Made by a program: the position numbers and the translations under genes. Below, in pieces: positions 4,033 to 39,182 of a stretch of 39,182 bases of DNA. Within the stretch, counting starts at the first letter, position 1; each line of letters begins with the position of its first letter. A model generated the notes under the pieces. It did not search any database and was not told where the DNA came from. It saw nothing but the letters and a program-made list of their open reading frames with translations. The stretch comes from a virus. The stretch is from positions 1 to 39,182 of IMG/VR virus record IMGVR_UViG_3300031237_000015. One strand, written 5' to 3'.

Positions 4033-4173
4033 CAGCGGCCGGCGAGGCGTGAGACGAAGTGGGCGCATGAAGCACGGAGGGCTGCACAATTTCAGCGGGC
4101 TCTGCTCGCCCTCGCCCCGGCTCCCGACCCTCCGCGGGTGCCGAGCGGCGAGGTTTTTCTTGAGGTCGACCTG

Positions 4174-5052
4174 ATGCGCTGGGAGGACGAGAGGTACGTA
4201 AGGCTCTACACGCGCGACACGGTCACCTGGAAGCTGCTCCCGTGGCAAGGCAAGGCGCTCTTGCCGCTGCTGTTGCGGAAGCTGGATCGAGCTGGAGTCC
4301 TAGACCTGGCCGATGAAGACGCCCCCGATGCCATCTCAGCGCTGACCGAGTTGCCGATTGACGTCGTGCGCGTCGGCTGGCCTGCGCTGGTTGAGCGCGG
4401 CGTCTTCGCCGTTTCGGACACGCAAATAGTGGCGCCGAAGTTCATCGAGGCCCAGGAGACTCCGCAGTCCGACAGGCAGCGGAAGGCGGAGAGCAGGGCT
4501 CGCGCTCGCAACATGGCCTCACAACCAGCTGAAATCATAACGGATGAGTCCGCTTTGGTCACACGGAGTCACACGGAGTCACACGGAGTCACGCCAGGTC
4601 ACTCCGTGCTGTGCCGTGCTGTGCCGGACTGTGCTGTGCCTATCCGTGCCGTACCTAAAAAGCTTGCGCCTGCTTCGCAGCCGCCGCTTGCGTTGGAGCT
4701 TTCACCCACGGAGCTGCCCGAAGTCAGCGCGACGCGACGACTGACCGACTCGCTCTGTGCCATTTTCGCAGAGCAGCGCGGCGTCAAGTACGCATTCAGC
4801 GGCCGTGACGGGAAGGCTGCTCGGGACTTGATGGCCATGCCCGGAATCGACCAGGTGGAGATTGAGCGCCGCTGGCGCGACGGGCTCAACCGCCAGGGCT
4901 TCGCGCAGGTGTCGACGCTCTGGCAGCTGGTCGCGAAGTGGAACGACATCACCGCGCCGCAGAGGGACCCGCGCAAGGGTGGGGCGCGCGCTGAGGACGT
5001 GGACTGGAGCAAGTTCAACGGCCGCACCGGAGACGTGACGAATGAGTTCTGA
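4174..5052 (+). CDS. Replication initiator-like protein carrying the origin repeats
   Basis: The ATG at 4174 has TTGAGG eight bases upstream, so I prefer it to a GTG at 4138 with no ribosome site. About 292 residues. The N-terminus (YVRLYTRDTVTWKLLPWQGK and the following helices) resembles the winged-helix-like N-terminal domain of phage replication organisers. The middle is a low-complexity linker. The C-terminus (AFSGRDGKAARDLMAMPGID, then WQLVAKWNDI) resembles the helical region that recruits the helicase loader. It overlaps the DnaC-like gene by 11 bases, matching a lambda O/P-type pair. The linker DNA carries iteron-like repeats. The family call is by context and weak similarity. Confidence 0.65.
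   Translation: MRWEDERYVRLYTRDTVTWKLLPWQGKALLPLLLRKLDRAGVLDLADEDAPDAISALTELPIDVVRVGWPALVERGVFAVSDTQIVAPKFIEAQETPQSDRQRKAESRARARNMASQPAEIITDESALVTRSHTESHGVTPGHSVLCRAVPDCAVPIRAVPKKLAPASQPPLALELSPTELPEVSATRRLTDSLCAIFAEQRGVKYAFSGRDGKAARDLMAMPGIDQVEIERRWRDGLNRQGFAQVSTLWQLVAKWNDITAPQRDPRKGGARAEDVDWSKFNGRTGDVTNEF
4559..4651. repeat. Iteron-like repeats inside the initiator gene; probable replication origin
   Basis: TCACACGGAG occurs three times in tandem (4559-4568, 4569-4578, 4579-4588), followed by degenerate copies on the same 10-bp phase (TCACGCCAGG 4589, TCACTCCGTG 4599). CACGGAGT (4582-4589) and ACTCCGTG (4601-4608) form an 8-bp inverted repeat. Next come GTGCTGTGCC at 4606, 4616 and 4631. 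The sequence then turns A-rich (ACCTAAAAAG). The 10-bp period equals a helical turn and is not a codon multiple, so protein constraint does not explain it. Lambda and relatives carry iterons inside their O gene. Origin function is inference. Confidence 0.65.
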
Positions 5053-5740
5053 GCCCAGGAGAATCGGAGAGATGTTGCCCAGCTTCATTGCGCGGATGAG
5101 CCGCCCGCTGACGGACGATGAGAAGTTGGCCAGAGCCGAGTGGGAGCGCAAGCGCACGGAACTCGAGGCGCGCCAAGAGGAGCGCCGCCTAGAGGGCATG
5201 CTCGCCAGCCTCGGGGTGAAGGCGACCACGGCGAAGGCCGTATCCAGCGGGAGGCTTGACCGCACCGCCGCACTGCAGGGGGTCGAGGACCAAGAGCGTT
5301 TCGGACGCACGTTCCTCCTGCTCTCCGGCGGAGTTGGCACAGGGAAGACGGTGGCCGCTGCCAGCGCTGCTATCGCGGCAACCAAGAGCGGGCAGCGAGC
5401 ACGCTTCGTCAAGGCGGGCGAGCTCTCAACGCAGAGCAGTTTCGGCGACGCTGCCGAGGCGCGCATGGCGGAGCTCCGGCGAGCCGATGTGCTCGTGATT
5501 GACGACCTCGGACTCGAGCGCCTGCATGACATGTGGAAACAGGCCTTCGAGGATTTGATTGATCACCGTTGGGAGGAAGACTTGCGCACCATCATCACAA
5601 CCAATCTGCCGCCAACGGCAGACGCCGGGCGGCAATCGATCCGTGGTGTGTACGGCGAGCGCGTGGCATCGCGCATTCGGCAGAAGGGCCTGATCGTCCT
5701 GTGCGGCACCGACGACCTGCGTCGAACGGAGGCGCCGTGA
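5042..5740 (+). CDS. dnaC: DnaC-like AAA+ helicase loader
   Basis: 232 residues. The N-terminal third is charged and helical. Walker A is GGVGTGKT (about 96-103), Walker B VLVIDDLG (about 150-157), sensor-1-like IITTNLP (about 188), and a GERVASRI arginine-finger-like segment follows. This order fits DnaC/IstB-family ATPases that load the replicative helicase. The gene starts inside the end of the initiator-like gene. The phage carries no recognisable helicase, primase or polymerase, so it probably recruits the host replisome. Confidence 0.9.
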   Translation: MSSEPRRIGEMLPSFIARMSRPLTDDEKLARAEWERKRTELEARQEERRLEGMLASLGVKATTAKAVSSGRLDRTAALQGVEDQERFGRTFLLLSGGVGTGKTVAAASAAIAATKSGQRARFVKAGELSTQSSFGDAAEARMAELRRADVLVIDDLGLERLHDMWKQAFEDLIDHRWEEDLRTIITTNLPPTADAGRQSIRGVYGERVASRIRQKGLIVLCGTDDLRRTEAP

Positions 5741-36658: not shown

Positions 36659-36942
36659 CGCTTCACCCACGCACAGTCACGCAGGTGGCCGACCGAGGTC
36701 AGCTCTTTGATTGGGCACCGGCACAGGGCCGGCGTCTTGTCGTCGTCGCGCGCCCTCCTGGCGGCGAGCAGAGGAGAGCCGTCCGGGAGCTGGGCCGGCT
36801 CCCAGAACGCTCGGTCCATGCGAGCGACGCACATTCCCAGCCCATGGACTTCGCCATTCACCCAGTCCGGGGCCTCGTCTGGAGTCGGCGCGATGATCCA
36901 TCCGCCCGGCATTGGATGGCGCCCACAGAAGCACGTAGTCAT
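36655..36942 (-). CDS. Hypothetical protein with Cys motifs at both ends
   Basis: The ATG at 36942 overlaps the upstream stop (ATGA), giving 95 residues. MTTCFCGRHPMPGGW at the N-terminus and LCRCPIKELTSVGHLRDCAW at the C-terminus place CxC...H and CxC...C clusters that could bind one zinc together. No family is recognised. Confidence 0.6.
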   Translation of the reverse strand: MTTCFCGRHPMPGGWIIAPTPDEAPDWVNGEVHGLGMCVARMDRAFWEPAQLPDGSPLLAARRARDDDKTPALCRCPIKELTSVGHLRDCAWVKR

Positions 36943-37232
36943 TTCAGCACCTCCCTCGCCGCACATTGCACGGCGACAGAATCCAGCACAGAGACCTTGT
37001 CCACCACTGAGCGGTACCGGTCCCGCTCCCACGTCAGCTGCGCCACCATGCGCTGCAGCTGCGCCGCCTCCGCACGTAGGGCCTTGGCCTCATCCTGGAG
37101 ACTCAACGCCTCCGCTGAGACGGACATGCCGCCCCGATGCAGGTTGGTGAGCTCCACCTCGGCATCGGTGACCAGTGCCCGAGTTGGACCATGCTGCGCT
37201 GCAGCCTCAATCAGCTTCCGAATCGCACTCAC
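36939..37232 (-). CDS. MSAxxKLI-family paralogue B
   Basis: The GTG at 37232 overlaps the upstream stop (GTGA), giving 97 residues. It starts MSAIRKLIEAAAQHGPTRAL and is coiled coil afterwards (AEALSLQDEAKALRAEAAQL). Its first 24 coding bases are identical to those of the next gene upstream (37229-37663), and it shares a V-x-AEVEL element with it. It lacks the WAAKGGGK tail of that gene. No function is assigned. Confidence 0.7.
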   Translation of the reverse strand: MSAIRKLIEAAAQHGPTRALVTDAEVELTNLHRGGMSVSAEALSLQDEAKALRAEAAQLQRMVAQLTWERDRYRSVVDKVSVLDSVAVQCAAREVLK

Positions 37233-37659
37233 TTGCCACCACCCTTCGCTGCCCAGCGCTCGAATGCCTCGTCAAGGGACAGGTCGCGCTGAATGCTGGC
37301 GGGCGTGTCGAAGTCCCGAGACGCACTGACCAGCCAGCGACGCCTAGCTTCCTGCAGCTCCGCGTCCGCCCGGTCGCGCGCCTTTCTGTCGGCACGCCAG
37401 TCCTGAAGCTCGGATGCGTGAGGCGCAATCTGAGCGCGCTGGGATTTGATGGTCTGGTCGCGCTCCGCGTGAGCCTGGTCTCGCTTCGTCTCGTGTGCGA
37501 GCCGCTCACGTAGCCTTCGAATCTCATCGCGCAGTGGCCGCGCTGCAATTGACGCCAGGTCCTTCAGCTCCGCCTCTGCCGCTGACGCGACCTCCTCCAC
37601 TAGAGAGTTGCCTGGATTGAGCGCCTTGGCCTCAGCAATCAGCTTCCGAATCGCACTCA
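37208..37659. repeat. 24-bp exact repeat at the starts of two adjacent genes
   Basis: The 24 bases at 37208-37231 recur exactly at 37636-37659. Both encode the start of an MSAIRKLI protein on the minus strand. The third family member at 5949 on the plus strand matches this 24-mer at 19 positions. The perfect identity between the two adjacent genes suggests recent duplication or conversion. Confidence 0.85.
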
Positions 37660-37663
37660 TCAT
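37229..37663 (-). CDS. MSAxxKLI-family paralogue C, coiled coil
   Basis: The ATG at 37663 overlaps the upstream stop (ATGA), giving 144 residues. It starts MMSAIRKLIAEAKALNPGNS, continues VEEVASAAEAELKDLASIAA, then has a long charged coil (IRRLRERLAHETKRDQAHAE) and ends LDEAFERWAAKGGGK. Head and tail match the early-arm protein at 5949-6233, while the centre differs. This looks like one scaffold with exchangeable middle parts. The function is unknown. Confidence 0.7.
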   Translation of the reverse strand: MMSAIRKLIAEAKALNPGNSLVEEVASAAEAELKDLASIAARPLRDEIRRLRERLAHETKRDQAHAERDQTIKSQRAQIAPHASELQDWRADRKARDRADAELQEARRRWLVSASRDFDTPASIQRDLSLDEAFERWAAKGGGK

Positions 37664-37860
37664 GCCTCCTTGTGTTCGACGACCGCCCAGCACCAGCGGT
37701 CGGCAGTCATGTTCCGCAGCTCCAACGCGGCGCCGCAGTCGCACAGCGACGTTGCGCCGAGCAGCAGCACCTGTGCCGTGCGGACCTGCAGCATCAGTGC
37801 GTGTCCGCACAGCGGACACTCCACCTTCGGCTTGGCGCACCATCCGAGGACGTGGGTCAT
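37660..37860 (-). CDS. Zinc-ribbon-like small protein
   Basis: The ATG at 37860 overlaps the upstream stop (ATGA), giving 66 residues. ECPLCGHALMLQVRTAQVLL followed by CDCGAALELRNM is a CxxCG...CxCG pair typical of small zinc ribbons. It ends ADRWCWAVVEHKEA. Probably nucleic-acid or protein binding. Confidence 0.7.
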   Translation of the reverse strand: MTHVLGWCAKPKVECPLCGHALMLQVRTAQVLLLGATSLCDCGAALELRNMTADRWCWAVVEHKEA

Positions 37861-38368: not shown

Positions 38369-38535
38369 AGTCTCCTCCTGCGCATGTGCGCATCGCCTTC
38401 CAACGTCTCACCACAGGTGGGGCATCTCCACCTGACCACCATGTCCATCGGGAGCGGCGGCCGACTGTGCGTGCCGACCCGACAGAACAGCCGCAATACC
38501 CAGTCCAGCGCGCGAATCGCAGCTTGCCGCCACAT
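38365..38535 (-). CDS. 56-residue CxxC protein
   Basis: The ATG at 38535 shares a base with the upstream stop and the TGA overlaps the next GTG. It reads MWRQAAIRALDWVLRLFCRV and then DMVVRWRCPTCGETLEGDAH with MRRRRL. An N-terminal amphipathic helix precedes half a zinc ribbon and a basic end. The coupled ends support it. Confidence 0.6.
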   Translation of the reverse strand: MWRQAAIRALDWVLRLFCRVGTHSRPPLPMDMVVRWRCPTCGETLEGDAHMRRRRL

Positions 38536-38762
38536 CAGAGATTCGTCCTAAGATCGTTCGCCACCCGACCGAGCACGTCCACAGCGAACGCCCATGCTGC
38601 GCGCTGACTCGGCTCGACCAGCGCCATTGCGTCGCCGTGCACCTTCGCCACGGCCTCCACCCGACGGATGGCGTGTTCCTTGACCGCGGTGCGCGTCGAC
38701 ATCGCGCCGAGCAGAAACGAGACGGCGATGAGGCCGAAGCCGCAGAGGATGGTCCAAATCAT
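38535..38762 (-). CDS. Single-pass small membrane protein
   Basis: The ATG at 38762 overlaps the upstream stop (ATGA), giving 75 residues. WTILCGFGLIAVSFLLGAMS is a membrane helix, followed by a soluble helical domain (AIRRVEAVAKVHGDAMALVE, AWAFAVDVLGRVANDLRTNL). The function is unknown. Confidence 0.65.
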   Translation of the reverse strand: MIWTILCGFGLIAVSFLLGAMSTRTAVKEHAIRRVEAVAKVHGDAMALVEPSQRAAWAFAVDVLGRVANDLRTNL

Positions 38763-39049
38763 GGCGCCTCCGCCTGTGCGATGGCTTCCTTGGCCTCATC
38801 TGCCTGCACGAGCACTTGCGTGCGGTGATCGCCATCGGCCAGCGACTCAAGCAGCGAGACACAGTCCTTCAGCGCACCCAGCAGCACCTTACGGTCCGTC
38901 CTGAGCCGTTCCGTATCCTCGGCGATCAGCTTGATGCTGAGCCCGATGCACTCGTCGCAGATGCCGATGCCGACCACCTCCGAAACAACCATCTTGCGCA
39001 CATCTCGCAGCCTCTTCGCGCAGAAGGCGCACTCCGTGACCGGACTCAC
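38759..39049 (-). CDS. Stand-alone ClpX-type zinc-binding domain protein
   Basis: The GTG at 39049 overlaps the upstream stop (GTGA), giving 96 residues. Residues 6-40 read ECAFCAKRLRDVRKMVVSEV then VGIGICDECIGLSIKLI, with C7, C10, C31 and C34. The CxFCxKxxxxVRKM(V/I)...ICDECIxL pattern is that of the ClpX N-terminal zinc domain, which dimerises and recruits adaptors and substrates. The AAA+ motor is absent. A helical tail follows (LLGALKDCVSLLESLADG). It might compete for ClpX adaptors or redirect host ClpXP. The domain assignment is fairly sure; the role is inference. Confidence 0.75.
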   Translation of the reverse strand: MSPVTECAFCAKRLRDVRKMVVSEVVGIGICDECIGLSIKLIAEDTERLRTDRKVLLGALKDCVSLLESLADGDHRTQVLVQADEAKEAIAQAEAP

Positions 39050-39182
39050 CGGTCACCTCCGGCCAGCGCAGCCTCGACCATCTCCACCGTGATGATTCCG
39101 CGCACGAGGGGAGCCATCTCAGCAAGCGCCTTGGCGCGAGCGGATCGCCAGGCGGCGGCGTCGGCGTAGGCGGCGGCGTCGG
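39046..39182 (-). CDS. Ala-rich phage protein, C-terminal part (gene crosses the window ends)
   Basis: This open frame runs in from base 39182, reads DAAAYADAAAWRSARAKALA with EMAPLVRGIITVEMVEAALA, and ends at the TGA overlapping the ClpX-domain gene start. Two unpaired bases at 39181-39182 plus base 1 complete an Ala codon if the ends are joined, which extends the N-terminal part at 1-130. See that entry for the whole 88-residue protein. Confidence 0.8.
   Translation of the reverse strand, partial: DAAAYADAAAWRSARAKALAEMAPLVRGIITVEMVEAALAGGDR

Follow-up and report, generated by a model that had tools for sequence, protein, structure and literature searches.

Proteolysis by ClpXP governs what becomes of phage replication initiators, repressors, transposases and antitoxins, and a short open reading frame at the right end of a tailed-phage record raises the question of whether a phage can carry the docking domain of ClpX without the motor and, if so, what that domain would do. 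The window analyzed here is the whole of IMG/VR record IMGVR_UViG_3300031237_000015 (39,182 bases). Its minus strand holds the genes for the terminase large subunit, portal, head maturation protease, major head and tape-measure proteins, and its plus strand carries a gene for a DnaC-like helicase loader (5042–5740). The open reading frame (38759..39049, minus strand, stop codon included) encodes 96 amino acids from a GTG start and lies amid an overlapping operon of small minus-strand genes. The stop codon of the upstream gene (39046..39182, minus strand, 5′ end lost at the contig end) overlaps the GTG in the sequence GTGA, and the ATG of a small downstream gene (38535..38762, minus strand) overlaps the stop codon in the sequence ATGA. 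Because of these two overlaps and a GGAGG located 6 nt upstream of the GTG, the reading frame looks translationally coupled to its neighbors. Its GC content by codon position is 0.68/0.41/0.79, and it is plausible as a gene. The downstream product (75 amino acids, with a hydrophobic N-terminus) matched no family in Pfam or PHROGs. Elsewhere in the operon, two adjacent small minus-strand genes (36939–37232 and about 37229–37665) both start with MSAIRKLI followed by coiled-coil-like sequence, which suggests a local duplication.

The identity of the protein is supported by its sequence and by its modelled fold as a ClpX-type zinc-binding domain (ZBD) without a motor. The original prediction had recognized the N-terminal domain of ClpX in a CAFC-X20-CDEC pattern with VRKMV and ICDECI contexts, and this reading is exact: the cysteines are C7, C10, C31 and C34, accompanied by V17-R-K-M-V and I30-C-D-E-C-I. 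All four align with the zinc cysteines of ClpX in an alignment of 50 sequences (the 96-aa protein, 28 stand-alone ZBD proteins and 21 ClpX N-domains from viral contigs). Pfam PF06689 (zf-C4_ClpX) scores 29.6 bits, above its cut-off of 27 (E 6.4e-7, profile positions 2–39 of 39), and when all six frames of the 39-kb record were searched with this profile, this reading frame was the single match (E 1e-8). The domain assigned by Pfam covers residues 6–44 (38918..39034, minus strand), with the whole-record search and Foldseek as further evidence. No other Pfam family was matched up to E 10, and the DksA/TraR family profile was not matched. In a phmmer search of PDB sequences, ClpX chains rank first (E 6.7e-5 to 4.8e-4). 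The ClpX equivalog models TIGR00382 and NF003745 align only through the first ~60 of their about 415 positions, with 23–27 bits against cut-offs of 359–371; thus, the AAA+ motor is absent, as had been predicted. The profile of phrog_6797 matches the ZBD part only (22.3 bits, E 2.4e-4), and that of phrog_12435 reaches E 0.068.

Identity to the E. coli ZBD is about 38% over 39 residues. Besides the cysteines, the ClpX-typical positions F9, V17, I30 and the hydrophobic helix positions are kept, the conservation of F9 and V17 being partly fixed by the search pattern that gathered the aligned sequences. Leu12-Tyr13, which stand just before the first cysteine of E. coli ClpX, are replaced by T5-E6. 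The two extra residues between the cysteine pairs, noted at the outset, are extra relative to the E. coli protein but are not foreign to ClpX. X20 spacing occurs in 19 of 110 Walker A-bearing ClpX proteins from viral contigs among the matches listed, a count that is not a frequency because the sample was drawn by spacing; genuine ClpX can thus have this spacing too.

Structure prediction, which had been proposed as a check, gives a fold that matches the crystal structures of the E. coli ClpX ZBD. The AlphaFold2 model (pLDDT 93.5) comprises a treble-clef core, a helix at residues 32–70 and a second helix at 73–94, and it was helped toward the ClpX fold because its input, the 50-sequence alignment, held ClpX rows. 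The top PDB match of the model in Foldseek is chain B of the E. coli ClpX ZBD structure 2ds6 (probability 1.00, E 0.024), to which the predicted structure superposes with an rmsd of 0.9 over 39 columns. Aligned by VIA-align with 2ds8, a complex of the ZBD with XB, the SspB tail peptide, the model obtains a Z of 6.9 over 41 residues, which is ordinary for a domain so small and is equalled by helical hairpins, so the fold assignment relies on the rmsd from Foldseek and on the match in sequence. The side pocket that E. coli ClpX offers to trigger factor is formed by Phe16 and Ile46 and coincides in part with the site for lambda O and adaptors (PMC7804408). At the level of the sequence alignment, these pocket positions correspond to F9 and L41 of the 96-aa protein.

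The remaining half of the protein (residues 47–96; 38762..38911, minus strand) holds the end of the first helix and the second helix of the AlphaFold2 model. Residues 46–96 matched no PHROGs family, and their matches in the phage collection were due to chance, leaving a C-terminal module shared among phages unsupported. Comparison of the hairpin with PDB structures returned generic helical hairpins and no recognizable family. Three mutually close viral-contig proteins (L105:831-1139, L114:8619-8897 and L088:850-1137) combine an X20 ZBD with a helical-looking C-terminal stretch IGDIDRLIAAGVAARHAL, an architecture that, judged from sequence, looks parallel to that of the 96-aa protein.

The original prediction knew of no phage system of this kind. 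As to occurrence this was wrong, since stand-alone ZBDs recur and already bear names in public records of phages and prophages. With lengths of 45–116 amino acids, they are found in IMG/VR contigs, isolated phages and phage-plasmid-like replicons. Two DNA-pattern scans of viral contigs gave at least about 110 Walker A-bearing ClpX proteins and at least 28 distinct short ZBD reading frames that lack Walker A and reach a stop codon soon after the domain; the start codons assigned to these short frames are guesses, and part of the contigs may contain DNA of the host. Three identical 39-aa matches (L094, L098 and L106) were dropped as non-coding repeats lacking a start codon. With a consensus ZBD as query, tblastn matched 69 records of phages and 166 of plasmids, some of which contain full-length ClpX. 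Annotation confirms stand-alone ZBD genes in Escherichia phages P88 and D6, in Pseudomonas phages phPA-G (Detrevirus), EM (Pakpunavirus) and Alize, and in plasmid records of E. coli and Bradyrhizobium. Of 5,426 complete E. coli genomes, 109 carry the P88 form. RefSeq names such phage proteins “ClpX C4-type zinc finger protein”, and PHROGs places them in phrog_6797 (unknown function) and phrog_12435 (labelled protease). The ZBDs of P88 and D6 (L237:2824-3156 and L238:2812-3132) and phrog_12435 carry the public labels “carboxylate-amine ligase” or “protease”, and nothing suggestive of an enzyme was found in their sequences. Pantoea phage PdC23 contains an unannotated 66-aa ClpX-type zinc-finger reading frame (L243:2980-3177; Pfam 44.7 bits) that lies between pdc_057 and pdc_058 and overlaps the start of the RusA gene.

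Many of the phage relatives are almost bare ZBDs (45–66 amino acids). Others bear extra segments that vary: L105 and L114 have a C-terminal extension, and the P88, D6 and phage-plasmid forms have about 60 N-terminal residues. The 96-aa protein resembles the named stand-alone proteins of phages, prophages and phage-plasmids (phrog_6797 and phrog_12435) in being a free ZBD with no AAA+ module, encoded by a small early or accessory gene of a tailed phage. It is more divergent than they are, with 29.6 Pfam bits compared with 41–71 for ten relatives scanned, and it has its own helical hairpin and X20 spacing where the stand-alone phage ZBDs more commonly have X18. No close whole-protein relative was found in viral contigs, and the sole genome-contig match, in a Roseivivax MAG, was a chance ADGDHRTQ within a 1297-aa reading frame. 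Searching the phage collection with the whole protein by tblastn retrieved mostly ClpX-like stretches in unannotated records. The ZBD motif was present beside related terminases at 0 of 80 terminase loci, and relatives of the record's major capsid protein were not found; consequently, there is no syntenic ZBD copy to compare. The 96-aa protein is a divergent addition to a class of phage proteins that is widespread and already named but has apparently not been characterized, and no functional study of stand-alone phage ClpX ZBDs was found in the open-access literature.

The relatives are often seen in an early or replication-gene context. Stand-alone ZBD genes neighbor replication initiators, helicases, DnaC-like loaders and DNA methyltransferases, and others adjoin nin-type or Ead-type genes. 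No single partner recurs beside them, the commonest neighbor family accounting for 5 of 101 neighbors. In phPA-G (L239:2801-3198), a DksA-like zinc-finger gene overlaps the stand-alone ClpX zinc-finger gene by one base; the same position is held by a TraR/DksA-type gene in a Pseudomonas plasmid (H144) and by a putative regulator in phage PP9W2 (H50), and the DksA-like gene and the ZBD gene are possibly a conserved pair.

What such a domain could do in an infected cell is suggested by the ClpX N-domain itself. The ClpX ZBD is the docking place of SspB, RssB, trigger factor and lambda O, and the turnover of lambda O changes when some of the ZBDs are removed from ClpX (PMC7804408). A role in modulating ClpXP, as put forward in the original prediction, is a reasonable hypothesis. 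The preferred reading, drawn from the sequence and the model and given a probability of about one half, is that the 96-aa protein is an accessory phage product that serves the ClpX N-domain as a decoy or partner, in competition for adaptors and substrates. It would bind zinc, fold and probably dimerize as the ClpX N-domain does, and offer the same hydrophobic docking pocket. It may then draw adaptors and N-domain-dependent substrates away from host ClpX or, alternatively, pair with ClpX's own N-domains. Selected proteins, such as phage replication initiators and regulators, would thereby be spared by ClpXP, or the choice of substrates would shift, and the C-terminal helical hairpin may stabilize the dimer or bind a partner. 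A decoy or dimer partner suits the family better than an enzyme does, given how many of the phage relatives consist of little besides the ZBD; for proteins of this size there would be scarcely any action left other than competing or pairing. The kept pocket positions and the replication, nin-type and Ead genes beside relatives also favor this reading, and the divergence from the E. coli ZBD, including T5-E6 in place of Leu12-Tyr13, counts against it.

The bareness of the relatives also bears on a different way of engaging ClpXP, in which the ZBD pairs with ClpX N-domains and its helical part, or the peptide groove of a bare ZBD, delivers a chosen host or phage protein for degradation. CpdR and other adaptors act on the ClpX ZBD (PMC7804408), and the variable segments that flank phage ZBDs, including the C-terminal helices of the 96-aa protein, are consistent with such an adaptor. 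However, relatives that hardly exceed the ZBD leave little room for a cargo module, and no conserved partner adjoins their genes, making delivery of cargo an unlikely function. Somewhat less improbable, although still doubtful, is a role unrelated to ClpX, in which the treble-clef zinc fold would have been turned into a small module for binding nucleic acid or protein, in the manner of DksA/TraR-type early C4 proteins of phages. The divergent sequence of the 96-aa protein and the overlap of the Detrevirus ZBD gene with a DksA-like zinc-finger gene point this way, whereas the retention of F9, V17 (these two with the reservation about the search pattern given above), I30 and the hydrophobic helix positions argues against it, as do the top matches in Pfam, NCBIfam and PDB, all of which are ClpX.

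That the reading frame is what remains of a clpX gene once captured and now in decay was considered and rejected as very improbable. The ZBD is indeed the first domain of ClpX, and full clpX genes do occur in some phages, but the reading frame contains no recognizable AAA+ remnant, has a ribosome-binding site to itself, overlaps tightly with the adjacent genes, shows a strong codon-position bias and belongs to a size class that recurs across many independent phages.

Compared with the N-terminal ZBD of ClpX (PDB 1OVX, 2DS5–2DS8), the putative decoy shares the zinc cysteines, the predicted treble-clef fold and the hydrophobic pocket positions; it differs in lacking the AAA+ motor, in its additional helical hairpin and in having T5-E6 for Leu12-Tyr13. 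A parallel to the proposed mode of action only is provided by mycobacterial ClpC2, a free homolog of the ClpC1 N-domain with an added dimerization part, which sequesters cyclomarin, an N-domain ligand, from ClpC1 (PMC10030653). That ClpC2 also competes for substrates and adaptors is a possibility proposed by its authors (PMC10030653). ClpC2 is not homologous to the 96-aa protein: it copies a ClpC N-domain of unrelated fold, and it is actinobacterial and not described as a phage gene. According to the description cited in PMC10030653, a phage adaptor-like protein acts on B. subtilis ClpCP via the ClpC N-domain (Mulvenna 2019). By that description, it resembles the 96-aa protein in coming from a phage and works, as the 96-aa protein would, at the level of a Clp-unfoldase N-domain; the adaptor-like protein binds the N-domain rather than copying it, and its unfoldase is a different one.

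A broader proposal, advanced tentatively and with less confidence than the decoy reading, is that unrelated phages reuse the motor-less docking domain of ClpX to reprogram or blunt host ClpXP early in infection, and that the hairpin of the 96-aa protein would give this decoy a dimer or partner specificity of its own. If phages do carry decoy copies of a docking domain, this would be a general and easily tested way to steer host proteolysis. Databases already contain the family, with members in cultivable phages such as P88, D6 and the Pseudomonas Detrevirus phages, so the metagenomic member raises a question that is testable in laboratory strains. On the plus strand of the window, a gene at 4138–5052 immediately precedes that for the DnaC-like loader and has no clear family; it may encode a replication initiator, a possible ClpX substrate.
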